Made by a program: the position numbers and the translations under genes. The notes below the pieces were generated by a model. The model was not told the origin of the DNA, did not search any database, and worked only from the letters and a program-made list of their open reading frames with translations. A stretch of DNA of 47,092 bases from positions 1 through 47,092 of the IMG/VR virus record IMGVR_UViG_3300035085_000013; one strand, written 5' to 3'. Below, one piece after another: positions 2,200-30,874 of this stretch; positions within the stretch are counted from its first letter, which is position 1, and each line of letters opens with the position of its first letter. This stretch comes from a virus.

Positions 2200-3066
2200 T
2201 CAAGCCCGCCCTGTTGATCCATTGGTAGGCCGGCTGCGGGCAGCTTGCCGGCTTCGGATAATGCTACTCAGGGAGGAACCCCTGGTGGGCTCTTCCTGAG
2301 TGGAACTGGCGGGCCTGCGACCAGTGCGCGGCCCTCCTGTTCCTGCTTCCACAAGGGTGCGATCGCCCGACCGATCCTCGCGATTGGGCTTCGGCACGCC
2401 GAGCTTCTCGAGTTCCCCGCGCACTCGCTTGGCGAGCTCTGGGCGCGCCTCCCCGACCTTCAGATCGGCGATCTGGTTGAAGTCGCGCTGGAGGACCGTT
2501 GTCACAAGGAACTCCTTGCCCACGAGGTCCTTGTTTTCTTTGTAGAAGTCGGTCCACCAGGTCTTCATGTTCTCTTCCTGGCGGTACTGCTCCGTCAGCT
2601 GCTGCGAAATCTCCGCTGTGACGCCCTGCCTGATCTTGGCGATCGTGCCCTTGGGATCACGGAAGAGCTCCGTTTCCCAATTCGTCTCGTCGAGCCAGTT
2701 CTTCTTCTCCGCCGGCGTCTGGGGCTGCTGCGGCTGCTGGTCGGGCTGACGCGCCTGTGGACGAGGCTCTTCTCTGGGCGCTGGCTGCCGAAGGCCGTTG
2801 ATATAGTTGGTCAGCTCCTCCTGGCTCGAGAAGCTCTTGCCATCGTAGCTGAAGTTGAATTCCGGCGGCGCGTCTTCGCCAGGACCACCTCGCAGAACGG
2901 AGCGCTCTCTAACAGCACCGGGGTCCTGCGGCTCGTCCTGCCTAGCCGGCGGATCATCACCCTGCCGATCATTCGGCGGAGGATCATCCTGACCTTCCTC
3001 GGGAGGCGGATCGGCCTGCTGGGCGCGCCGCCGTCCATGCTCCTTAACCGCTGTTCTTCCTGCCAT
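2200..3066 (-). CDS. Scaffolding protein
   Basis: 288 residues of low complexity. The first 110 are Pro/Gln/Asp/Arg-rich and disordered, the middle (about 120-220) is charged and helical (WLDETNWETELFRDPKGTIAKI, ISQQLTEQYRQEE), and the tail is basic and Ser/Arg-rich. Position immediately upstream of the major capsid gene, length and composition are those of a phage head scaffold. The start overlaps the upstream gene by 23 nt. Confidence 0.8.
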   Translation of the reverse strand: MAGRTAVKEHGRRRAQQADPPPEEGQDDPPPNDRQGDDPPARQDEPQDPGAVRERSVLRGGPGEDAPPEFNFSYDGKSFSSQEELTNYINGLRQPAPREEPRPQARQPDQQPQQPQTPAEKKNWLDETNWETELFRDPKGTIAKIRQGVTAEISQQLTEQYRQEENMKTWWTDFYKENKDLVGKEFLVTTVLQRDFNQIADLKVGEARPELAKRVRGELEKLGVPKPNREDRSGDRTLVEAGTGGPRTGRRPASSTQEEPTRGSSLSSIIRSRQAARSRPTNGSTGRA

Positions 3067-3775: not shown

Positions 3776-5889
3776 AGCTGCATCCCTGTCATAGGATTGG
3801 CTTCTTGATTGATCTGGGCTGTCTGCTCCGGCGGACCACCCATCGGGCTGACCATCCCACCAGGGCCTCCGGTCCCCAGGCCAGTTCCACCTGTCCCATC
3901 CTGGGCCATCTCTCCGCCCTGCGCGCCATTCATCATCTGCGCGAAGAGCATAATCTGCTGCATCTCCTGTGGGAGTTCGCTCATCTGATTAGGTGTGCGC
4001 GCCCAATCATCGGGATTGATGTTGAGCTGCTTCATGGCCGTCTTCAGGACTTTCTGCGGACTATAATTCGTCATAAAGGCCTGCATCATGATCGGGTTGG
4101 ATGCAACAACCTGCATGAGGGCCATTGTCTTTTGGAAATCGCGCACCCGGCTCATCATTGAAGAGAGGCCGTTAACTTCAAAGGTGGCGATATTGGCGAA
4201 CATTGCGAAACGTTCGGCCTTTGAAAGGGACAAAAGGAATTGGGCCGGTGCAACACCTATGGTTTGGATGATCTCCTTGCGATCGAAGTCTTCGACGTGC
4301 TGCAAGATGGTGAGCCATGCCTTCTTCAAAACTGGCTCCATACCATCATTCTCAATATCTGCACTTATAGAATCGAGGGTGACAGCCTGGCTCTGATCCG
4401 CTGATGTAATCTCCGTTGCCTTAACCTGCCTCGGCGGAAGTGACCCCAGCTTAATGTCGTTTGTGAGGGCCGCCTGCGTAAACTCGCGCGCGACCATCTC
4501 GAATATGGCCATCGCATCCGTGGGGACTTCACCCTCTGTGCAGTTCTCGATGACCTTGGTGTTTGCCGGAAGATCGCTCTTAACAGCCAGCGTGATGCCC
4601 TGAGGTATGCCATCGGAGATCTGAGTTGGGTCCTCGAGCATGTCTGTGCGCAACTGCTTGATCCCCCAAACAGCTGCCATGCCGCCATCCAGCATGAGAT
4701 TGAACATCTCATTGAGCGCGATGTTAAGGTGACTGGCGCTATCATAGAGGGCCTTGTGCCACACACTATGTGGAACCCGGATCAGCGGGCATGTTACAAA
4801 GGGACTTTCTCCATGCCACCAGGGATTGGGCTCTGGCTTTCTGATGACATACTTGTCGTTGGCCACCGCCGCTACGCAGTTTTCGTGCACTGGATAGCCA
4901 TCTTGATCTAAAAGAGTGCCCCAGAACTCACGTATCACCAGAGTGCGTCGGTTGCGCGGCGGCTCAGAGCGGTCTTGACCTCTGGTGTTTTCCTTCCTCT
5001 TCTTGTCTTCCTCGTCCCTGAAATCTCCATCTATGGCTTCCACAACCGCCATGTCGTAGATGCCAGCTTCAGCCATCTCGAGGACCTGATGAAAGTCCCT
5101 CTCGACTTCGTGGATCTCGTACAAACCGCGCCCTGTTGGGTCGGGGAAATAGTCCTCAGGACGAACGATGTCTATGCACAAACGCCAAGTTGTTTTTTCG
5201 TTAATTCGAAGAGCAGGTTCTGCCTGGACGGTTTGTCCAGTTTCCAGGTTGACACCCGGCGGGGGTGTGTCTACTTCATATGAGCGTTGTTTGATGGGGC
5301 GGCCATGCACTTTGAAGATCATCAGGCTGTCGAGCAGCGCGCCCTTGGCTGCATCCGCCACGATTGTTTCAAATTTGACTGTTTTATTTACACCAGCTGG
5401 AATATTGTGAATATATAGCTTGAGCAGATCTCTCATCTGCTTATCAGTTAAAAAGGCAGGGAGATTATCGTTTAACTTTACTTCAAACCAATCCCCAAAC
5501 TGCACAAGAGAACGCTTCACGAATGCGCTGAATTGTTCTGCAGACACTGAGACCTTCGGCAAAAATTCAGCGCTCTGGCCTTCTTGCTTGTGCGAAAAAT
5601 CCTGCTCATCCATATAGGCAAGCTGGTTCAGTTCATTCTTCTTCATGCGCGACTTGCGCGCGTCGAATGCTTCCCTGCGGAATTCCCTGATCTGTTTGAG
5701 AACATCCGCATCTGATAGCGCGCTGCGTTCGGCAGAGTGCATATCTGTGTGAACCGCCAGATTGGTATGTCGGGCGAAGTCTGGCGGCACGTCGTCGGCT
5801 GAGGGCCCAGTCTGAAGAGCGCGGTCCCCTGTGGGACCCGGACCGTCAGTCAGGAGGCTCTTCTTTGCGGTGGTGGACCTTCTTGCCAT
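3772..5889 (-). CDS. Portal protein
   Basis: 705 residues, the length usual for podovirus (P22/N4-type) portals. It would form the dodecameric ring at the packaging vertex. Supporting features are a disordered N-terminus, a helical region around 60-130, the central LCIDIVRPEDYFPDPTGRG and VIREFWGTL, a long wing/stem, and a Gly/Met/Gln-rich C-terminal tail (QMMNGAQGGEMAQDG...). It lies between the large terminase and scaffold, as expected. No strong ribosome site precedes 5889, and the start overlaps the upstream gene by 44 nt, so translation may be coupled or begin slightly downstream. Confidence 0.9.
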   Translation of the reverse strand: MARRSTTAKKSLLTDGPGPTGDRALQTGPSADDVPPDFARHTNLAVHTDMHSAERSALSDADVLKQIREFRREAFDARKSRMKKNELNQLAYMDEQDFSHKQEGQSAEFLPKVSVSAEQFSAFVKRSLVQFGDWFEVKLNDNLPAFLTDKQMRDLLKLYIHNIPAGVNKTVKFETIVADAAKGALLDSLMIFKVHGRPIKQRSYEVDTPPPGVNLETGQTVQAEPALRINEKTTWRLCIDIVRPEDYFPDPTGRGLYEIHEVERDFHQVLEMAEAGIYDMAVVEAIDGDFRDEEDKKRKENTRGQDRSEPPRNRRTLVIREFWGTLLDQDGYPVHENCVAAVANDKYVIRKPEPNPWWHGESPFVTCPLIRVPHSVWHKALYDSASHLNIALNEMFNLMLDGGMAAVWGIKQLRTDMLEDPTQISDGIPQGITLAVKSDLPANTKVIENCTEGEVPTDAMAIFEMVAREFTQAALTNDIKLGSLPPRQVKATEITSADQSQAVTLDSISADIENDGMEPVLKKAWLTILQHVEDFDRKEIIQTIGVAPAQFLLSLSKAERFAMFANIATFEVNGLSSMMSRVRDFQKTMALMQVVASNPIMMQAFMTNYSPQKVLKTAMKQLNINPDDWARTPNQMSELPQEMQQIMLFAQMMNGAQGGEMAQDGTGGTGLGTGGPGGMVSPMGGPPEQTAQINQEANPMTGMQL

Positions 5890-6058
5890 ACGAAGGGATA
5901 CTCAGGTTGACTCTGTTATATGCACCAGGTGGGTTTGCGATACAATAGGTGCAAACTCCGATCTTGCTTTCATGACCAACAAGAGAATCTCCACACAGCC
6001 TACACACTACATGCCGTGTATAGGGCTCTGGGGGATTTGTTTCTCTATACCCACCCAT
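5846..6058 (-). CDS. Small zinc-ribbon protein between terL and portal
   Basis: 70 residues with one CxxC...CxxC zinc ribbon (CRLCGDSLVGHESKIGVCTYC, residues about 19-39). Zinc binding is inferred from the cysteine pattern. It is encoded between the large terminase and portal genes and its 3' end overlaps the portal start by 44 nt. Site AAGGGACC lies upstream of the ATG. Role unknown. Confidence 0.65.
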   Translation of the reverse strand: MGGYRETNPPEPYTRHVVCRLCGDSLVGHESKIGVCTYCIANPPGAYNRVNLSIPSYGKKVHHRKEEPPD

Positions 6059-6096
6059 ATCACACTAGGTCCCTTCGCGCAATAGCTTTGTGTAGG

Positions 6097-7698
6097 TTAG
6101 CGATGGCTACTGAAAGAATACCCTGGAGGGGGGAGTTTAACCCTCTGACGGGACTCCTTCGTCAGGGTGCGGACGGGTTCATCGAAGGCAATCCAATAGC
6201 CGACGGCATCACTATAGTGGGTGCGCTTGAAATAGGGGTTTTTTGGATCAGTCACCTTCTTGATCCCGCCTCGATTATCGCGCAGGACCTGCTCAAAATC
6301 CGCGATCAATTCGATGCACTCTGGATTGCATTCAAACCTATTCATGCCATCTTCATCTCGCATGACATGATTGACGGCGTTGATACGATCAGGGACTGGG
6401 GGGTTGCCCTCTGGGACTTTCATTCGGAATGGAACCTGATAGTGGCGCATTTCATTCAGGATGAGGGTGTAATTGCTCTTGTTTGATTGGGGATGTCTGT
6501 GGCGCCCAGTCGCGTCGCCATATATCCAGATTTCTGCAAAATGTTTCGGATGGACTTCATAAAAGAGCTGGCACATCTCAGGAATGCTGGCGCTCCCTTC
6601 TAAACCCAGCTCCCTATAGATGCGAAACATATTCTTGCCGTTGGCGAAGGTCTCGCGCTGACCCAACAAGCTAACCAGAGGCTCTACGTTAAAGTCCCAA
6701 ATCCACGCGAGAGGACGCCGGAGATTGATAAGTGGTTGAGGACGTACATTGAGCCGTCTGTCAAAAGAAGTATAGGCCCTAGCGCCGGATAACCCAGGGA
6801 GCCACTCTCCTCCCAGGCGGATACGCCCCTCCACTGATGTAGGAGGGAATTTGCTTTCGAGGATTGAAATCTCTTCCAATGGGATGTGCGGGTTGTCATA
6901 GATAGAGCTACCGAAGACACCGACATTCCTCAACTCCCCCCTCATGAATGGTTCAATTACTCTGGGAAAAACCCAGGTGATTCCTCCGACCTGACCGACA
7001 GGTGGAAGGAGCGTACAGGTGTTGAAGATCCGTAGTTTTCGAGCGCCCACTCGGATTGAGATCTCGTCGTAAATCTCCTTCGGGTGTTCCTCATCATTGT
7101 GAACCCAATCTTTCTCGGCTCCCTGGTATTTAGAGCGTCCAGAGTCAGCTGACTTGAAGCCGATAATAGAGCCATTTTTGAGTTTGAGGATTTGGTCAGC
7201 AACGCGCCACTCGTCGATCTCTCTTTCTGGAATAAAGGGTTCATGGGAAGCCCCTGGAGGCATAAATCCGTTATTAAAATACTTAGGCTGGATAGTGTCG
7301 CGCGATGTTGGAAAGTCAAGAGCGGAGACCCAACCAGATGTGGATCGATCCCTAACTGTGACATTCGATCCTTGCGCGCCGACAAAGCGTACATCATCGC
7401 CCTGGTCTCCAAAACGCGCAAGCATTGATCCAGCGTAGGCCCCTGCATCGCTCTTTCCTGAACGATTGGCAGCGATGAACCAATTTTCAGATGTGGGGCC
7501 ATTGAGCACCGCATTGACAAAAGGTCTCTGTTTGTCATGGAGCTGAAAATGCCGCAGAGGATCATCTGCCTGCCGCCGCTGGATTTCTGACAGCAAGGTG
7601 AGCACACGCTCCCTTTTGCGTCGCTGTTCAGTTAAAGAGCGTGTGTTCTCGGGATCATTCATAGGCGCGCAGCCTTTGGCTGAGAGAGGGGTTGACAC
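6097..7698 (-). CDS. terL: Terminase large subunit
   Basis: 533 residues: the ATP-driven DNA packaging motor with a headful or end-cutting nuclease. The ATPase domain has a Walker A at about 74-83 (FIAANRSGKSD) and a Walker B at about 198-204 (WVHNDEE). The RNase-H-like nuclease domain has acidic residues in WIWDFNVEP (D335), YGDATG (D395) and HYSDAVGYW (D497). The listed start is GTG at 7698; ATG at 7662 is an alternative, and neither has a strong ribosome site. It begins the minus-strand virion operon. A plus-strand promoter overlaps its first codons. Confidence 0.93.
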   Translation of the reverse strand: MSTPLSAKGCAPMNDPENTRSLTEQRRKRERVLTLLSEIQRRQADDPLRHFQLHDKQRPFVNAVLNGPTSENWFIAANRSGKSDAGAYAGSMLARFGDQGDDVRFVGAQGSNVTVRDRSTSGWVSALDFPTSRDTIQPKYFNNGFMPPGASHEPFIPEREIDEWRVADQILKLKNGSIIGFKSADSGRSKYQGAEKDWVHNDEEHPKEIYDEISIRVGARKLRIFNTCTLLPPVGQVGGITWVFPRVIEPFMRGELRNVGVFGSSIYDNPHIPLEEISILESKFPPTSVEGRIRLGGEWLPGLSGARAYTSFDRRLNVRPQPLINLRRPLAWIWDFNVEPLVSLLGQRETFANGKNMFRIYRELGLEGSASIPEMCQLFYEVHPKHFAEIWIYGDATGRHRHPQSNKSNYTLILNEMRHYQVPFRMKVPEGNPPVPDRINAVNHVMRDEDGMNRFECNPECIELIADFEQVLRDNRGGIKKVTDPKNPYFKRTHYSDAVGYWIAFDEPVRTLTKESRQRVKLPPPGYSFSSHR

Positions 7699-25080: not shown

Positions 25081-26382
25081 ATGAAGGTGGTTGAATACCC
25101 CATCGAGAAGATCACCATAGAGGGTCGCTTTCGGGAGGAAATGGGGAATATCGATGAACTCGTTCAAAGCTTCCAAGAAAAGGGTATTCTTCAGCCCATC
25201 ACAATCTCCAAACGTGGCCGGTTGCTCGCGGGTGGTCGGAGAGTTGCAGCGGCTCAGAAGGCCGGCCTTGCCACCATACCTGCGGTCATACGTCAAGGGG
25301 ATGAAATTGATGAGCTGGAGATTGAACTATTCGAGAATATCCACCGCAAGGATTTTACGTGGCCCGAGCGCGCCGCGCTTGAGAAAAAGATCTTCGACCT
25401 GAAAACAAAACAAGATCCTGGTTGGACCCAACGGGAACAAGCCCAACTCCTGGATGTTTCTGTTGGCGCTGTCAACAGACGCATTCAGCTGGCGGAGTAT
25501 CTCTCCGTGATCCCCGAACTAGCGGATTGCAGGACAGAGGATGACGCCTGGAAAACTGTGAAAAAGATCGAGGAGTCGTATGTCGTCGAAGCTCTGACCA
25601 AGCAGGCAGAGGCGAGGAATAGAGGAGAGGAAGAGCCAAAGGTAGCCAAATGGGCGGAAAACCACTATAAGGTAGGTGATGCCCTTGAGGGACTGTCTAA
25701 GCTCAATAAAGGCGTCTTTCATTTCGCAGAAGTTGATCCCCCATATGGGATTGATCTTCGCGGAAGGAAGAGCCGAGCCAAAACTGTGGGGGTGACAGAT
25801 CAGTATAACGAAGTCGAGGGGGCGGATTATGGCGAATTCTTGCGCGCCGCCGCGCAGCCGACATATGATGCTCTCTACGACAACGCATTCTGCGTTTGGT
25901 GGTTTGGCCAGGAGTGGTATGCCACAGTATTGGCTGTGTTGATCGATGTAGGCTTTAAAGTCAATCCGATCCCGGCCATCTGGTATAAGGGCAATGCAGG
26001 TCAGACGGCCAGCCCAGATACCATGCTCGGCTCCTCCTACGAAACCTTCTTCGTCGCGCGTAAAGGCCAACCGAAGTTAGCTAGGGCCGGGCGATCGAAT
26101 GTCTTTCATTACAGCCCCGTTCCTCCAAAACAGAAGATCCATCCCACCGAGAAGCCGATGGATTTGATGGTTGATTTGTTGGATACCTTCTTGTTCCCTG
26201 GCTCTAAGGTTCTGTGTCCCTTCCTTGGGAGTGGGGTGACGCTCCGCGCAGCCTATCGTAGTAATCACCTGGGCCTGGGTTGGGATAAGTCGCTCGAATA
26301 CAAGAAGCGCTTCCTGACAGCTGTGAAGCAGGATGAGCTCTTGGGCGTCAAACCCAAGGTAGAGAAGGCGGTGGGAGAATGA
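25081..26382 (+). CDS. ParB-domain / DNA methyltransferase fusion
   Basis: 433 residues. N-terminal ParB/Srx-like domain (residues about 1-95, GRLLAGGRRVAAAQKAG), a Spo0J-type helix-turn-helix (WTQREQAQLLDVSVGAVNRRI), then an amino-methyltransferase: DPPYG (219-223, catalytic), HPTEKP (354-359) and the SAM-binding PFLGSGVTLRA (380-390). The order (catalytic motif before SAM motif) is that of beta-type N6-adenine/N4-cytosine enzymes. It would modify phage DNA, perhaps against host restriction. Such fusions are known in phages. No restriction partner is present. Confidence 0.9.
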   Translation: MKVVEYPIEKITIEGRFREEMGNIDELVQSFQEKGILQPITISKRGRLLAGGRRVAAAQKAGLATIPAVIRQGDEIDELEIELFENIHRKDFTWPERAALEKKIFDLKTKQDPGWTQREQAQLLDVSVGAVNRRIQLAEYLSVIPELADCRTEDDAWKTVKKIEESYVVEALTKQAEARNRGEEEPKVAKWAENHYKVGDALEGLSKLNKGVFHFAEVDPPYGIDLRGRKSRAKTVGVTDQYNEVEGADYGEFLRAAAQPTYDALYDNAFCVWWFGQEWYATVLAVLIDVGFKVNPIPAIWYKGNAGQTASPDTMLGSSYETFFVARKGQPKLARAGRSNVFHYSPVPPKQKIHPTEKPMDLMVDLLDTFLFPGSKVLCPFLGSGVTLRAAYRSNHLGLGWDKSLEYKKRFLTAVKQDELLGVKPKVEKAVGE

Positions 26383-26585
26383 AAGTCTATAGGCACTTCA
26401 AAAATGGAAAGCTCTATACCATTGAAGGGAGGTGCATTCGCGAAAGCGATATGGAGCCTATGGTTCTATATTGCGATAGTACAAGGCATCCGATATGGGT
26501 TAGGCCGGAAAGAGAATTCTTTTCAGATGTCGAAGTAGCTGGAATACAGATGCCTCGTTTCCAAGAGGTAAATAAGAATGGCTAA
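26379..26585 (+). CDS. DUF1653 protein
   Basis: 68 residues: YRHFKNGKLYTIEGRCIRES, MEPMVLYCDSTRHPIWVRP, FFSDVEV...MPRF. It matches DUF1653, a small beta-barrel-like family of unknown function found in bacteria and phages. ATGA-coupled to the methyltransferase and overlapping the polymerase start by 8 nt. Confidence 0.85.
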   Translation: MKVYRHFKNGKLYTIEGRCIRESDMEPMVLYCDSTRHPIWVRPEREFFSDVEVAGIQMPRFQEVNKNG

Positions 26586-28209
26586 CAGCCCTTGGGAAGA
26601 AGGCACCCCCAACAGGAAAATCTGCATCCTAGCAGAAGCGCCCGCACGCAACGAAATCCGTATGAACCAGCCGCTGGTTGGCCTCAGCGGGATGTTGTTC
26701 AATGACTGCTTGCACGCCGCTAACATTGTGCGCGCGGAATGCTATATATTGAACGTCTTCCCTTATGAGGTCTTCAAAGACAAAACAGACAGCAAGATAT
26801 TTAATAGAGAAGGTGATATGCTATGGAGCAGCAGAACAGGATTTACCGCGTTTGGATTAGAAGAGGCAAAGCCAACACTGAAGAGGTTAGAAAAGAGCCA
26901 GGCCAACGTAATTGTCCCGCTTGGCGGCGTCGCGCTGTCTTTGTTATTTGGAGATTCCCGAATAATGAAGTGGCGTGGTTCCATACTGGAGAGCAAGCGC
27001 CTTCCGGGGAGGAAGTTAGTTCCTACGTTGCACCCAGCTTTTTCTTTACGCGGAAACTACACAGCAAGATATACCATACAAGCGGACCTCAAGAGGGTAA
27101 GGGAAGAAAGCAGCACAAGGCAAATCCTATTGCCAAAGCGAGAACTGATAATTGATCCACAGTTTAATGAAGTAATCGCCTTTTTGAATGATATGACGCG
27201 CGCGAGGCGCGTAGCCACTGATATTGAAATCCTCAATCATCAAATAAGCTGCCTTTCATTTGCACCTCGAGCTGATCTCTCGATGTGCATTCCGATGCTT
27301 GACGAAGGCAACAGACATCGCTGGACAGAAGAGCAGGAGGCACAGATCTGGCTTTTGATTGCAAAGGTGATGGGCGATGAGAAGATCGAAAAGATTAACC
27401 AGAATATCTTATTCGATGTGGCTTTTGAGTTTGAGCAGAATAGCGTTTTTACGCGTGGCACCACACACTGTACTATGTGTCTTCAGCATATTCTTTATCC
27501 AGATTTTCCCAAGGGGCTCGACTACATTTGCTCAATCAGAACTCGAGAGCCTTATTATAAGGACGACGGAAAGATATGGCAGAAGCCTTGGATTGACCTT
27601 GACAGATTTTGGACCTATAACGCGAAAGATAGTGCGGTGGCCCTCGAGGCGTTTGACGACGCATACACTGAAATCGAAGGTTATGAGTGGACATACGAGA
27701 GGACTCTGGCACTTTTCAGACCCCTGATGTTTATGATGATTAAGGGGATTAAAGTCGATCGGGTTCGATTAAAAAAGACTAATGAAGAGATAAAGAAGAA
27801 GATCGCCGAAACTGAGAAAACCCTGCGCGAGACTGCGGAATGGGACTTCAATCCAGGCAGCCCTAAACAGTGCCAGGAGTACTTCTATGTTACAAAAGGT
27901 ATTAAGCCGTATGTCTCTTCCAAAACGGGGTCTATCACCTGTGACGACAAGGCTATGGCTCGTATCTACAAAAGATATCAGCTACCTGAGGCTAAACTTG
28001 TCCAGGAGATCAGATCGTTACGGAAATTACATTCCTCCTATCTCGAAGTCGGGATCGACTCCGACGATCGGATCAGGTGCTCTTATAATCCCCGTGGGAC
28101 CTCGACGGGCAGGCTTTCCAGTTCGGAAACTGTTCGTGGCACGGGGATGAACCTCCAAAGTCTCCACGCAGAATTCAAAGACTTCTTGGTGGCGGATGAC
28201 GATGACTAG
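26578..28209 (+). CDS. DNA polymerase I-type, N-terminal part: UDG-like + 3'-5' exonuclease + thumb
   Basis: 543 residues. (1) Uracil-DNA-glycosylase-like domain, 1-180: ILAEAPARNE, LNVFPY, LVPTLHPAFSLR. (2) DEDDy exonuclease, about 205-365: TDIEI (D215/E217), NQNILFD (N276/D280), YNAKD (Y347/D351). (3) Family-A thumb and start of palm: FNPGSPKQ (424-431), LRKLHSSYL and TSTGRLSS (508-515). It stops at LVADDDD, just before motif A. All nucleotidyl-transfer residues are in the separate gene at 28762. The UDG part keeps the usual motifs but lacks the family-4 Fe-S cysteine pattern. Confidence 0.93.
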   Translation: MANSPWEEGTPNRKICILAEAPARNEIRMNQPLVGLSGMLFNDCLHAANIVRAECYILNVFPYEVFKDKTDSKIFNREGDMLWSSRTGFTAFGLEEAKPTLKRLEKSQANVIVPLGGVALSLLFGDSRIMKWRGSILESKRLPGRKLVPTLHPAFSLRGNYTARYTIQADLKRVREESSTRQILLPKRELIIDPQFNEVIAFLNDMTRARRVATDIEILNHQISCLSFAPRADLSMCIPMLDEGNRHRWTEEQEAQIWLLIAKVMGDEKIEKINQNILFDVAFEFEQNSVFTRGTTHCTMCLQHILYPDFPKGLDYICSIRTREPYYKDDGKIWQKPWIDLDRFWTYNAKDSAVALEAFDDAYTEIEGYEWTYERTLALFRPLMFMMIKGIKVDRVRLKKTNEEIKKKIAETEKTLRETAEWDFNPGSPKQCQEYFYVTKGIKPYVSSKTGSITCDDKAMARIYKRYQLPEAKLVQEIRSLRKLHSSYLEVGIDSDDRIRCSYNPRGTSTGRLSSSETVRGTGMNLQSLHAEFKDFLVADDDD

Positions 28210-28582
28210 TTGGACCCGGAAGCGTTTTGAATGGGTTCCTAATTCAGTCCCAACTAGGTGCACTCCATTAGTGCGATTGATTTATGCTTTGATGATGAAA
28301 CGCTTTGTGACATATGGAGAGCTTTGCGAAGAGTCAGGTGTGGGAATGGAAACAGTTGCTAGGCGCTGGCGCACACGCGGCGCTGCATCTGTCCCAAATC
28401 TCGAGGCCGTGTTGAACACGCTGGGATATAAGCTCGCAGCGGTTCCTATGAAAGAGCCTCTTGATGAACTAGGAAGGGTCAAACGCATCTGCCATGAGCC
28501 GCTTCCTCTGAAGGGGAAAGGAAGAGGAAACTGGCGATCATCGAAGAAGTATCAGCAACTCCAGGAGACGACAAATGGCTAA
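28196..28582 (+). CDS. HTH protein encoded inside the split polymerase, 128 aa
   Basis: ATG at 28196 (or 28202) lies within the last codons of the polymerase N-part. Residues about 28-75 (RLIYALMMKRFVTYGELCEESGVGMETVARRWRTRGAASVPNLEAVLNTLGY) look like an XRE-type helix-turn-helix; the tail is basic. It may regulate the replication operon. Its 3' end overlaps the next gene by 8 nt, so this is a chain of coupled genes and not a passively inserted block. Confidence 0.75.
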   Translation: MTMTSWTRKRFEWVPNSVPTRCTPLVRLIYALMMKRFVTYGELCEESGVGMETVARRWRTRGAASVPNLEAVLNTLGYKLAAVPMKEPLDELGRVKRICHEPLPLKGKGRGNWRSSKKYQQLQETTNG

Positions 28583-28769
28583 GGATATCGTGCGCGTGCT
28601 GCGTGTATTGGAGTATGTTGGTCCACGGAGATGGGTGGCAGAAACTCTGGCTAGAAATAGTGTAAAGGGGACAAAGATCATCTCAGAAGATTGCTTTATC
28701 TCTGAAGCCGTCATCGGAGATTATCCGGAAATCCTGAAGGTCAAGGAAGAGGAGCCAAAGAGTGACTGA
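28575..28769 (+). CDS. Small protein between polymerase halves, 64 aa
   Basis: Starts MAKDIVRVLRVLEYVGPRRWVAETLARN then GDYPEIL. This resembles a small phage protein with the VRVLRV-EYxGPREWVE...L...V-G pattern, often near polymerase genes; role unknown. AGGAG precedes ATG. It overlaps the GTG of the polymerase C-part by 8 nt. Confidence 0.75.
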   Translation: MAKDIVRVLRVLEYVGPRRWVAETLARNSVKGTKIISEDCFISEAVIGDYPEILKVKEEEPKSD

Positions 28770-29664
28770 GAAGGTCCTCCTAGAGCTCGACAAGGCCGGC
28801 GCGGAGTGGTTCATCGTCGGTTATATGGCAGGCGATGAAAGGATGATAGATGTTCACAGAACTGGAAAGAGCCCACATGTTGAAACTGGCAAATTACTTA
28901 CAGGCGCTAGCGAAGAGCTTATCCTCAGAGAACACAAACTCTTGGGAGCTATTACAGACCCTGTTATTATTGAGGAGGTGCGAAGAGAGCATCTGCCGGA
29001 ATTCTACAGTGATAATCTCCTCTTCAGACCTCGCATCTTTACAATCAGGCAATGCGCCAAAAAGTCCAACCACGGGCTAAACTACATTATGGGCGCCCGG
29101 CGCTTTTCCGAAGAGACCGAGATGGAGGAAAGAGACTGTAAAAAGATCATTGAACTATACACCAGAAAGGCGTATCCTAATATACCTTTGTGGTGGGAAT
29201 CTGTTAAACGCGAGTTGAAGAATAACAACCGAACGCTGGTTAATTGCTTCGGAAGAAAAAGACGTTTCATGGAGGCCTGGGGGGACGAACTCTTCAAACA
29301 GGCCGTAGCATTTCTTCCACAATCCACTAACGTGGATGCAGTCAATGAGGGAATGATTGCAACTTATAATGATGAATGGCTTATGTCATTTATGGATCTT
29401 CTCGCGCAGACGCACGACTCTATTACTCTCCAAGCGGATATTCGGGACTGGAAAAAGGTGGCGCGTGGTTGCGTTAAAATCGCTGAATACCTCTCGCCAG
29501 AAATGGAATATGGAGGCCGCAAATTCAAACTTGGCACCGAACTCAAGATGGGGTTGTCATGGGGATCTATGGAAGAAGTCAAAATCTCAAATGACATTGA
29601 TAAGTTTGCAAAAGACCTTCGATCCACCTACGAAGGCTTGAGAAATGGCAAAAAGGCGGCTTAA
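28762..29664 (+). CDS. DNA polymerase I-type, C-terminal catalytic part
   Basis: 300 residues from GTG 28762 behind GAGGAGCCAAAGA. It holds motif A (LLELDKAGAEW, D10), the O-helix motif B (R96-x3-K100...HGLNYIMG, with His at the usual Phe762 position and Tyr108), NCFGRKRRF, QSTNVDAVNEGMI and motif C (QTHDSI, D219). It has no exonuclease or thumb of its own, so it must act with the 26578-28209 product. It is in the same frame as that gene, but stop codons lie between them. It overlaps the ATPase gene by 20 nt. Confidence 0.93.
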   Translation: MTEKVLLELDKAGAEWFIVGYMAGDERMIDVHRTGKSPHVETGKLLTGASEELILREHKLLGAITDPVIIEEVRREHLPEFYSDNLLFRPRIFTIRQCAKKSNHGLNYIMGARRFSEETEMEERDCKKIIELYTRKAYPNIPLWWESVKRELKNNNRTLVNCFGRKRRFMEAWGDELFKQAVAFLPQSTNVDAVNEGMIATYNDEWLMSFMDLLAQTHDSITLQADIRDWKKVARGCVKIAEYLSPEMEYGGRKFKLGTELKMGLSWGSMEEVKISNDIDKFAKDLRSTYEGLRNGKKAA

Positions 29665-30874
29665 TGACTGGCTCACCCGATATCTTGAGTACACTGCCTC
29701 CTCCGAGAGTCCAGTGTCATTTCATCTCTGGGGTGGAGTGTCTTGCATCGCAGCAGCTTTGCAGAGAAAAGTGTATATTAGATGGGGACATTCCACAATC
29801 TATCCAAATAACTATATTATCTTGGTTGGACCGTCAGGACGCTCTCGCAAGGGAGAGGCAATTGGTATCGCTAGAGGATTGGCTGAGAATCTTAAACTGC
29901 CGCTTATAGGCGAAGATAATAGCATGGAGTCCATCATCCTTGAGATGAAAAATAGCGTCACTACTTTCAAGGACAAGGGCAATGGCAACCTCACCCTTCA
30001 ATGCGCAGTATCTTCTTTTGTTGAAGAACTCTCCGTGTTCACAGGTGAACAAAATAAGGTGTTCTTATCTTATCTTACCAACTGGTACGATAGCCGTGAT
30101 AGATGGAAGCGATCAACTAAGCATATGGGAATTGACGAGATTATGGGAATGTGCTTTAACCTTTTGGCAGCTACGGCACCCGATTGGGTGCCCTATATCC
30201 TCCCACGAGAGGCCATTGGAGGGGGTTTTACGTCGCGCTGTATCTTTATTGTTGAAGCCGGCAAAAGTAAAGTTGTGGCTGACCCTAACTCAATTAAGCA
30301 ACCCGAGCAACTGCGCAAAGATCTTGCCTTCGATCTCGAGGTTATCCATACGCTATCAGGAGAGATGAAATTTGAAGATAAAGCTAAGAAGGCCTATATT
30401 GAATGGTATGAAGATCAGGAGAAGAAGATCGAGGAAGGCAATCCACCTATTTCAGACCCGCTCTTTCAAGGCTATCTGGCGCGCCGGCCAATGCACCTCT
30501 TCAAAACCATGATGGTTATGAGCGCCTCAAGAGGTGGGGATATGCTTCTAACATTAAAGGATTTCAGGCGCGCGCTGTCCATGCTGGAGATTGCAGAAAA
30601 GAAGATGCCGAGAGTGTTCTCTGGGATAGGCAGCGCAAGGTATGCAGCCGAGACAGAGATGATTTTGCAATACATCGCAGCCAAGCGATCTGTTACAAAA
30701 TCAGAGCTCTTGACGACCTTCTATAAGCAGGTTGACGATTATAGCCTGGATATCGTGATGAAGGTCTTGAATGGGATGAAGATCGTGCAGACGATCATTC
30801 AGCCGGGAAAAGATGTAAAGTATGTGTATATGAAGAAGGAGACGGACCCCGACGTAGGGTCCGCCATCCACTGA
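29645..30874 (+). CDS. Helicase/primase-like ATPase (DUF3987 type)
   Basis: 409 residues. LWGGVSCIAAALQRKVYIRWG, YPNNYIILVGPSGRSRKGEAIGIA (degenerate P-loop GPSGRSRKG at about 62-70, with Lys but Gly instead of Thr/Ser), ...SSFVEELSVF (Walker B-like), and an arginine-finger candidate FTSRCIFIVE. The pattern is that of phage DUF3987-type proteins in replication operons. With no DnaB-like gene elsewhere it is the best helicase candidate. It is the last gene of the rightward block. Confidence 0.7.
   Translation: MAKRRLNDWLTRYLEYTASSESPVSFHLWGGVSCIAAALQRKVYIRWGHSTIYPNNYIILVGPSGRSRKGEAIGIARGLAENLKLPLIGEDNSMESIILEMKNSVTTFKDKGNGNLTLQCAVSSFVEELSVFTGEQNKVFLSYLTNWYDSRDRWKRSTKHMGIDEIMGMCFNLLAATAPDWVPYILPREAIGGGFTSRCIFIVEAGKSKVVADPNSIKQPEQLRKDLAFDLEVIHTLSGEMKFEDKAKKAYIEWYEDQEKKIEEGNPPISDPLFQGYLARRPMHLFKTMMVMSASRGGDMLLTLKDFRRALSMLEIAEKKMPRVFSGIGSARYAAETEMILQYIAAKRSVTKSELLTTFYKQVDDYSLDIVMKVLNGMKIVQTIIQPGKDVKYVYMKKETDPDVGSAIH
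30843..30863. other. Hairpin at the convergent gene end
   Basis: CGGACCC-7 nt-GGGTCCG, a 7-bp perfect stem inside the last codons of the ATPase gene, where the rightward and leftward blocks meet. There is no T-tract on either strand. It may act as a weak bidirectional terminator. Confidence 0.4.

Follow-up and report, generated by a model that had tools for sequence, protein, structure and literature searches.

A family A DNA polymerase encoded in two pieces

The window analysed here, a 47,092-base stretch of viral DNA that constitutes one IMG/VR record (IMGVR_UViG_3300035085_000013), encodes a family A DNA polymerase (PolA) in two pieces, polN (chain 1) and polC (chain 2), with two small genes between them (Table 1). 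Chain 1 carries a uracil-DNA glycosylase (UDG) domain (PF03167, residues 8-160, 3e-14) and the exonuclease motifs DIE, FD and YNAKD, and it ends ...FLVADDDD at the beta-turn that precedes polymerase motif A. Chain 2 reads MTEKVLLELDKAGAEW from its GTG at 28762, such that its N-terminus is the motif-A strand, and contains motif A (LELDKAGAEW), motif B (RQCAKKSNHGLNY) and motif C (THDS). Re-reading of the sequence bore out the coordinates, frames and ends that an earlier sequence-only reading had given for both genes, and Pfam and PHROG 17 matches confirmed its assignment of exonuclease, thumb and TSTGRLSS to chain 1 and of motifs A, B and C to chain 2; its domain list for chain 1 was right on exonuclease and thumb but had overlooked the N-terminal UDG domain.

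The two chains match complementary parts of polymerase profiles. On Pfam DNA_pol_A (PF00476), chain 1 covers profile positions 3-125 (3.6e-16) and chain 2 positions 207-380 (1.2e-14), both above the cut-off, and both chains match PHROG 17 (DNA polymerase; 8.2e-42 and 1.6e-23, respectively). The chain 1 match to PHROG 17 ends at position 985 and the chain 2 match begins at 1006, indicating that nothing substantial was lost at the joint. These complementary matches, the Asp residues of motifs A and C, the Arg and Lys of motif B and the structural match described below place the pair in family A, among the UDG-exonuclease-PolA fusions of the PHROG 17 type. No second polymerase of family A, B or C was found elsewhere in the record, which is possibly incomplete; an intact polymerase elsewhere was one of the observations that the sequence-only reading had named as able to undo it.

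Table 1 Features of the split polymerase locus in the window
Feature	Position	Strand	Remarks
ParB-like/DNA methylase fusion	25081..26382	+	Upstream neighbour; same order in split and intact relatives
Chain 1 (polN)	26578..28209	+	543 amino acids (aa); UDG domain, 3'-5' exonuclease, thumb, TSTGRLSS...NLQSL region
Gap gene 1, 128-aa open reading frame (ORF)	28196..28582	+	Start 28196 or 28202; weakly helix-turn-helix (HTH)-like (residues 32-86)
Ribosome-binding site of 64-aa gene	28563..28567	+	AGGAG, 7 nucleotides (nt) before ATG 28575
Gap gene 2, 64-aa protein	28575..28769	+	PHROG 16463 (unknown function)
Ribosome-binding site of chain 2	28750..28754	+	AGGAG, 7 nt before GTG 28762, within the end of the 64-aa gene
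Chain 2 (polC)	28762..29664	+	300 aa, GTG start; palm and fingers
DUF3987 primase/helicase-like gene	29645..30874	+	Downstream neighbour; PHROG 14296; overlaps the end of chain 2

Two residues of the polymerase motifs merit a separate remark. At the position of Escherichia coli F762, motif B has His (KKSNHGLNY; window 29038-29090), as do most UDG-PolA, intact and split. A study of virioplankton sorts PolA by Phe, Tyr or Leu at that position (PMC6302109), and a search of open-licence papers, the scope of all our literature searches, gave nothing relevant on His there. Motif C in the UDG-PolA family is HDS instead of HDE.

All four genes overlap, as the sequence-only reading had described: chain 1 and the 128-aa ORF by 8-14 nt, the 128-aa ORF and the 64-aa gene by 8 nt, and the 64-aa gene and chain 2 by 8 nt. 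Its further statement that each has its own ribosome site holds for the 64-aa gene and chain 2, but upstream of the 128-aa ORF no clear site was found in the sequence. The label 'HTH-type' for this ORF is weakly supported, with PHROG regulator and HTH families matching at E = 0.06-0.1 and a Pfam search giving no match; its residues 15-80 are ~41% identical to small Rhizobium-phage proteins. Relatives of the 64-aa protein occur in Pseudomonas PaMx41/PaP2-type phages, among small genes and outside the polymerase. Neither gap gene matches an endonuclease in Pfam or PHROG profiles, and promoters and terminators in the region did not exceed their number in shuffled sequences.

Structure predictions placed the break within the polymerase fold. 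The intact UDG-PolA homologue L048 (L numbers denote related loci) yielded a model with a mean predicted local distance difference test (pLDDT) score of 91.5, whose exonuclease and polymerase parts matched the Klenow fragment (Z 33.0, root mean square deviation 3.8, 559 residues). On this model the cut, hereafter the A-site, corresponds to a four-residue ADEG beta-turn that links strand LF to the motif-A strand YILAELDK; L048 reads FADEG-YILAELDKK there, and the split chains are jointly residue-complete. Chain 2 of the window, predicted alone, gave a mean pLDDT of 93.9, resembled the fingers and palm of Pol I and matched Pol I large fragments, with its predicted strand E4-10 forming the motif-A strand. 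Because chain 2 begins on that strand, the active site must combine two chains, if the enzyme works.

A clade shares the break, and both chains are under selection

Relatives were gathered by searches with both chains and with their alignments, giving more than 50 related loci; chain 2 as a lone query against viral contigs returned no confirmed match, and it was the alignment search that succeeded. UDG, exonuclease, thumb and palm segments were mapped onto open frames and all chains were aligned; the resulting counts derive from pattern-seeded searches and are not frequencies. The loci fell into three conditions: intact, split at the A-site just before motif A, and split in the exonuclease domain (J-site). 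The J-site lies between Exo II and Exo III, with YxxxD on the second chain, and corresponds to approximately residues 350-370 of L048, a stretch of lowered pLDDT. A third type of split is rarer and interrupts the loop that follows NLQN(I/L)P; it was seen in L020 and the cultured Vibrio phage vB_VspS_VS-ABTNL-3, in which a 184-aa gene divides the UDG-PolA (L084, 1906-5040). Being cultured, this phage is a handy laboratory model; the one paper found on it says nothing about its polymerase.

In a maximum-likelihood tree of 64 rows and 650 columns, from which junction columns were excluded, the window falls in a clade of 30 distinct A-site-split UDG-PolA loci (ultrafast bootstrap/Shimodaira-Hasegawa-like approximate likelihood ratio test (SH-aLRT) 97/94). 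A clade of 14 J-site-split loci lies nearby (98 SH-aLRT in a quick tree), and the intact L048 and Desulfofustis phage LS06-2018-MD01 stand outside the split clades. Across A-site loci, chain 1 mostly stops by its own stop codon with few extra residues, chain 2 has a start codon, accompanied by a ribosome site in 21 of 34 loci in a simple scan, and the gap ranges from none to 2.7 kb.

Both halves carry signatures of a maintained enzyme. In close A-site pairs, chain 1 had a ratio of nonsynonymous to synonymous substitution rates of 0.07-0.12 and chain 2 one of 0.06-0.22 (synonymous sites being partly saturated), which indicates purifying selection on each chain. The 52 split rows almost invariably retain the catalytic residues of Exo I-III, motif A, motif B (Arg and Lys) and motif C (His and Asp), and the single motif-A exception among aligned rows reflects a one-base frame slip. 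Distances for chain 1 and those for chain 2 correlate at r = 0.91, and their correlations with the neighbouring DUF3987 gene are lower, at 0.75 and 0.73 (17 loci; descriptive values).

One-base frame slips just past the motif-A Asp codon were observed in L171 (~3010-3050) and L080 (~2500-2520). We rejected loss of the motif-A Asp in these loci, as the codon is present in the other frame; in these metagenomic contigs the slips may be sequencing error or recent damage.

These data bear on whether the locus is an assembly error, a recent frameshift or a pseudogene, a broken polymerase in a phage that uses another. The window is a metagenomic contig whose completeness is unknown, and a few relatives (L171, L080) show one-base frame slips near motif A. 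The identical break in 30 distinct loci from many metagenomes, however, excludes assembly error, which the sequence-only reading had itself named as a threat, as well as chance; purifying selection, the retained catalytic residues and the lack of another polymerase in the record point the same way. We find this explanation barely credible and already refuted by the relatives.

A parallel lineage argues against splicing and recoding

A split PolA was published in 2023 for the Methylophilales (OM43) phages MEP401 and MEP402 (Zobellviridae), whose authors found it in most of the MEP401 group and suspected an intron (PMC10580990). In MEP401, gp13 ends ...IKTLFLSRYGE, gp15 starts MILNADAKALEW and gp14 (77 aa), a small gene of unknown function, lies between. 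The cut separates the NLQN...FL strand from the motif-A strand and occupies the same alignment column as that of the window; unlike the window, MEP401 lacks a UDG domain, has other replication neighbours and sits on a separate branch of the PolA tree. The claim of the sequence-only reading that this is not a described system therefore stands only in part, the same cut with a small gene having been published, and further split-PolA reports are possible beyond the papers covered. The database search that it had proposed recovered both the clade of 30 loci and this parallel lineage, which also includes the same cut in Alcaligenes phage QDWS535 and two spring-water phage genomes. Among 80 viral contigs with relatives of MEP401 chain 2, 76 have both halves, and all 76 are split. 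In one of the spring-water genomes, L083 (MW202796, 924-6393), the halves lie ~3.6 kb apart and enclose seven annotated genes, including a cytosine-specific methyltransferase.

The two A-split lineages arose independently. A single clade of all A-site splits is rejected by the approximately unbiased test (P = 2.4e-5), against both a single origin for all pre-motif-A splits and common descent of the window split with that of MEP401, and intact HMO-2011 and many intact UDG-PolA are placed between them. Tree labels require at least six changes (three at the A-site, two at the J-site and one in the NLQN loop), from which we infer at least six fissions at three loops. The second J-site change is that of Caulobacter phage Kuura; Kuura and L017 are long branches of less certain placement, and neither is needed to conclude that the UDG-PolA clade and the MEP401 group split independently.

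One rival reading takes the gap for a self-splicing group I or II intron with genes inside, whose removal would yield a full-length polymerase; SPO1 has such an intron, and one was suggested for MEP401. Group I introns do occur in phage PolA (SPO1, I-HmuI; Bastille, I-BasI; Pf-WMP3, I-PfoP3I) and likewise place DNA in a critical part of the gene (PMC3428280). The annotated SPO1 intron starts directly after TGRLSSNEP, ~40 residues upstream of motif A; this is close to the present break but is not the same position, and we rejected identity of the two sites. Unlike those insertions, which splice, the window gap has no intron match: Rfam gave none at the gathering score in the window and nine relatives, and at relaxed thresholds returned nothing relevant in the gap (E up to 5) or in six further loci (E up to 0.5). 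The start codon and frequent ribosome site of chain 2, the stop codon of chain 1 and the gap lengths of none to 2.7 kb also disfavour an intron. In the MEP401 lineage the spacing runs from -17 (overlap) to 635 nt, and in many loci only a few dozen nucleotides, or a TAATG-type overlap of stop and start, lie at the joint; where there is no intervening DNA, an intron is impossible. For the window, we consider splicing very unlikely.

Full-length enzyme might also be produced by translational bypass, frameshifting or protein trans-splicing. Bypass in T4 gene 60 and split inteins are known from phages, phage MIJ3 providing a case of the latter. Spacings in the MEP401 lineage nevertheless differ (overlaps of 1 and 17 nt, and gaps of 26, 29, 48, 52, 90 and 125 nt), and the frame relation of the halves varies with locus, which disfavours frameshifting; gaps that contain whole unrelated genes also speak against this reading. 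No intein fragment or extra domain was found at the facing termini of the two chains, where polymerase sequence reaches the break but for a few residues. Such recoding or trans-splicing appears extremely improbable.

The gap harbours interchangeable cargo

Gap ORFs formed 36 clusters in the A-site UDG clade and 13 at the J-site, with none common to both, although some short singletons are possibly spurious. Both gap genes of the window are singletons with no counterpart in any other member's gap, and one 70-aa family recurs in A-site gaps. Elsewhere the same place is filled by GH25 lysozymes (L031, L036, L049), M15 peptidases (L043, L047, L060, L067; two slightly below the cut-off) or ThyX (L065), and the L034 gap holds only a tiny 15-codon ORF. 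HNH-like zinc-finger proteins occur in L023 and L026, among the nearest kin of the window (PHROG 826, 7e-9 and 6e-11); L171 of the MEP401 lineage contains an Endo-VII-type endonuclease (PHROG 3322, 8e-29). PADLOC gave no convincing match to defence-system genes in the gaps. Some small gap proteins may be MazG-like; this is our own reading, with no Pfam match. Gap content is thus interchangeable among relatives.

Further gap genes were noted in passing. L068 contains a 530-aa subtilase-family protease (5400-6992), the spring-water phage L080 (MW202697), of the MEP401 lineage, an R67-type dihydrofolate reductase (PF06442, 2.7e-22; 2282-2488), and the J-site split of L042 (3184-4856) a 381-aa RecD/UvrD-like helicase with a dATP/dGTP pyrophosphohydrolase-like gene.

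The sequence-only reading had made the putative regulator part of the system. On such an account, the HTH-like and 64-aa proteins would form a cassette that controls assembly or expression of the polymerase, with the split serving that control, and an HTH_3 protein in the L036 gap and a weak winged-HTH-like protein in that of L027 lend it some substance. Cargo clustering rejects a conserved gap regulator, however: the HTH-like and 64-aa genes recur in no other gap, the clusters are unrelated, and lysins, ThyX, a subtilase or a tiny ORF stand in the same place elsewhere. We regard a regulatory cassette as very unlikely.

The setting of the locus is conserved. The gene directly upstream, which joins a ParB N-terminal domain to an N6/N4 DNA methylase, is kept in the related loci checked. 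Desulfofustis phage LS06-2018-MD01 and Microcystis phage Mel-JY34 share the domain order and the neighbourhood (ParB/methylase, polymerase, DUF3987 primase) and differ from the window in having UDG-PolA as one intact chain of ~810-830 aa. Elsewhere in the window, homologues of an SU10-type portal and adaptor (PF23899, PF24175; 3772-5889 and 42025-42987) suggest a podovirus-like virion.

Interpretation and significance

The best reading of the locus is a two-chain, genes-in-pieces polymerase with a cut already known from MEP401. We hold it to be very probable that the window encodes a two-chain UDG-exonuclease-PolA, broken before motif A, whose break is inherited by the clade and permissive for unrelated genes. 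Without any splicing, the two chains would fold and come together as one enzyme whose active site spans the interface, chain 1 supplying the thumb and the TGR/NLQN segment and chain 2 supplying motifs A, B and C. That the halves assemble as separate chains, as the sequence-only reading had proposed, is a well-supported inference: both are conserved, selected and jointly complete, nothing points to an intron, and some splits in the MEP401 lineage are gapless.

In the ancestor of the clade, the coding sequence would have been broken at the beta-turn codons between the two strands preceding motif A, and chain 2 would have acquired its own start codon and ribosome site. Judging from the overlaps and ribosome sites, chain 2 is probably translated by coupled re-initiation from the overlapping upstream genes. 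Passed to the whole clade, the break would have become a permissive site that unrelated genes enter and leave. The first insert was likely a free-standing homing-type endonuclease gene, an origin favoured by the endonuclease-like gap genes in near kin and the MEP401 lineage and by T4-like precedents; illegitimate insertion is the alternative.

Several points weigh against this interpretation. The window gap has no endonuclease gene, which leaves the origin of its break to be deduced from relatives; assembly and activity of the chains are likewise read from selection, co-variation and completeness of the sequences; and chain 1 might also, in principle, work by itself as a UDG/exonuclease.

Precedents come from T4-like phages: Aeromonas phage 25 gp43A and gp43B co-purify with polymerase activity, and the split NrdA of Aeh1 is fully functional (PMC2988022). 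As in these cases, the gene for an essential enzyme is divided here by foreign genes into parts that are translated separately. The T4-like examples concern a ribonucleotide reductase and a family B polymerase, split by a recognizable homing endonuclease gene or untranslated sequence, whereas the present locus combines family A with a UDG domain, another cut, clade-wide inheritance, varied cargo and a reassembly that is predicted from sequence. With no endonuclease match in its gap, the window lacks one mark of the homing-endonuclease (Aeh1 nrdA) type of genes in pieces.

More tentatively, and with somewhat less confidence than would make it the expected outcome, we propose that the independent PolA splits, at least six at three surface loops (in the exonuclease domain, the NLQN loop and the pre-motif-A turn), led to clade-wide obligate two-chain polymerases, and that split loci are a standing harbour for insertions, among them lysins, endonucleases and genes of nucleotide metabolism, since a gene flanked by two essential half-genes is not easily removed by recombination.

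Replicative polymerases are commonly viewed as single, precisely assembled chains. The intron explanation for the marine OM43 phages is removed, at least for relatives without intervening DNA. If the two-chain reading is true, this repeatedly evolved, clade-wide form, cut beside the catalytic aspartate, would show that an active site can be put together from two chains translated apart; these phages would offer natural models for split polymerases and illustrate how a core replication gene comes to accommodate unrelated genes, endolysins included.

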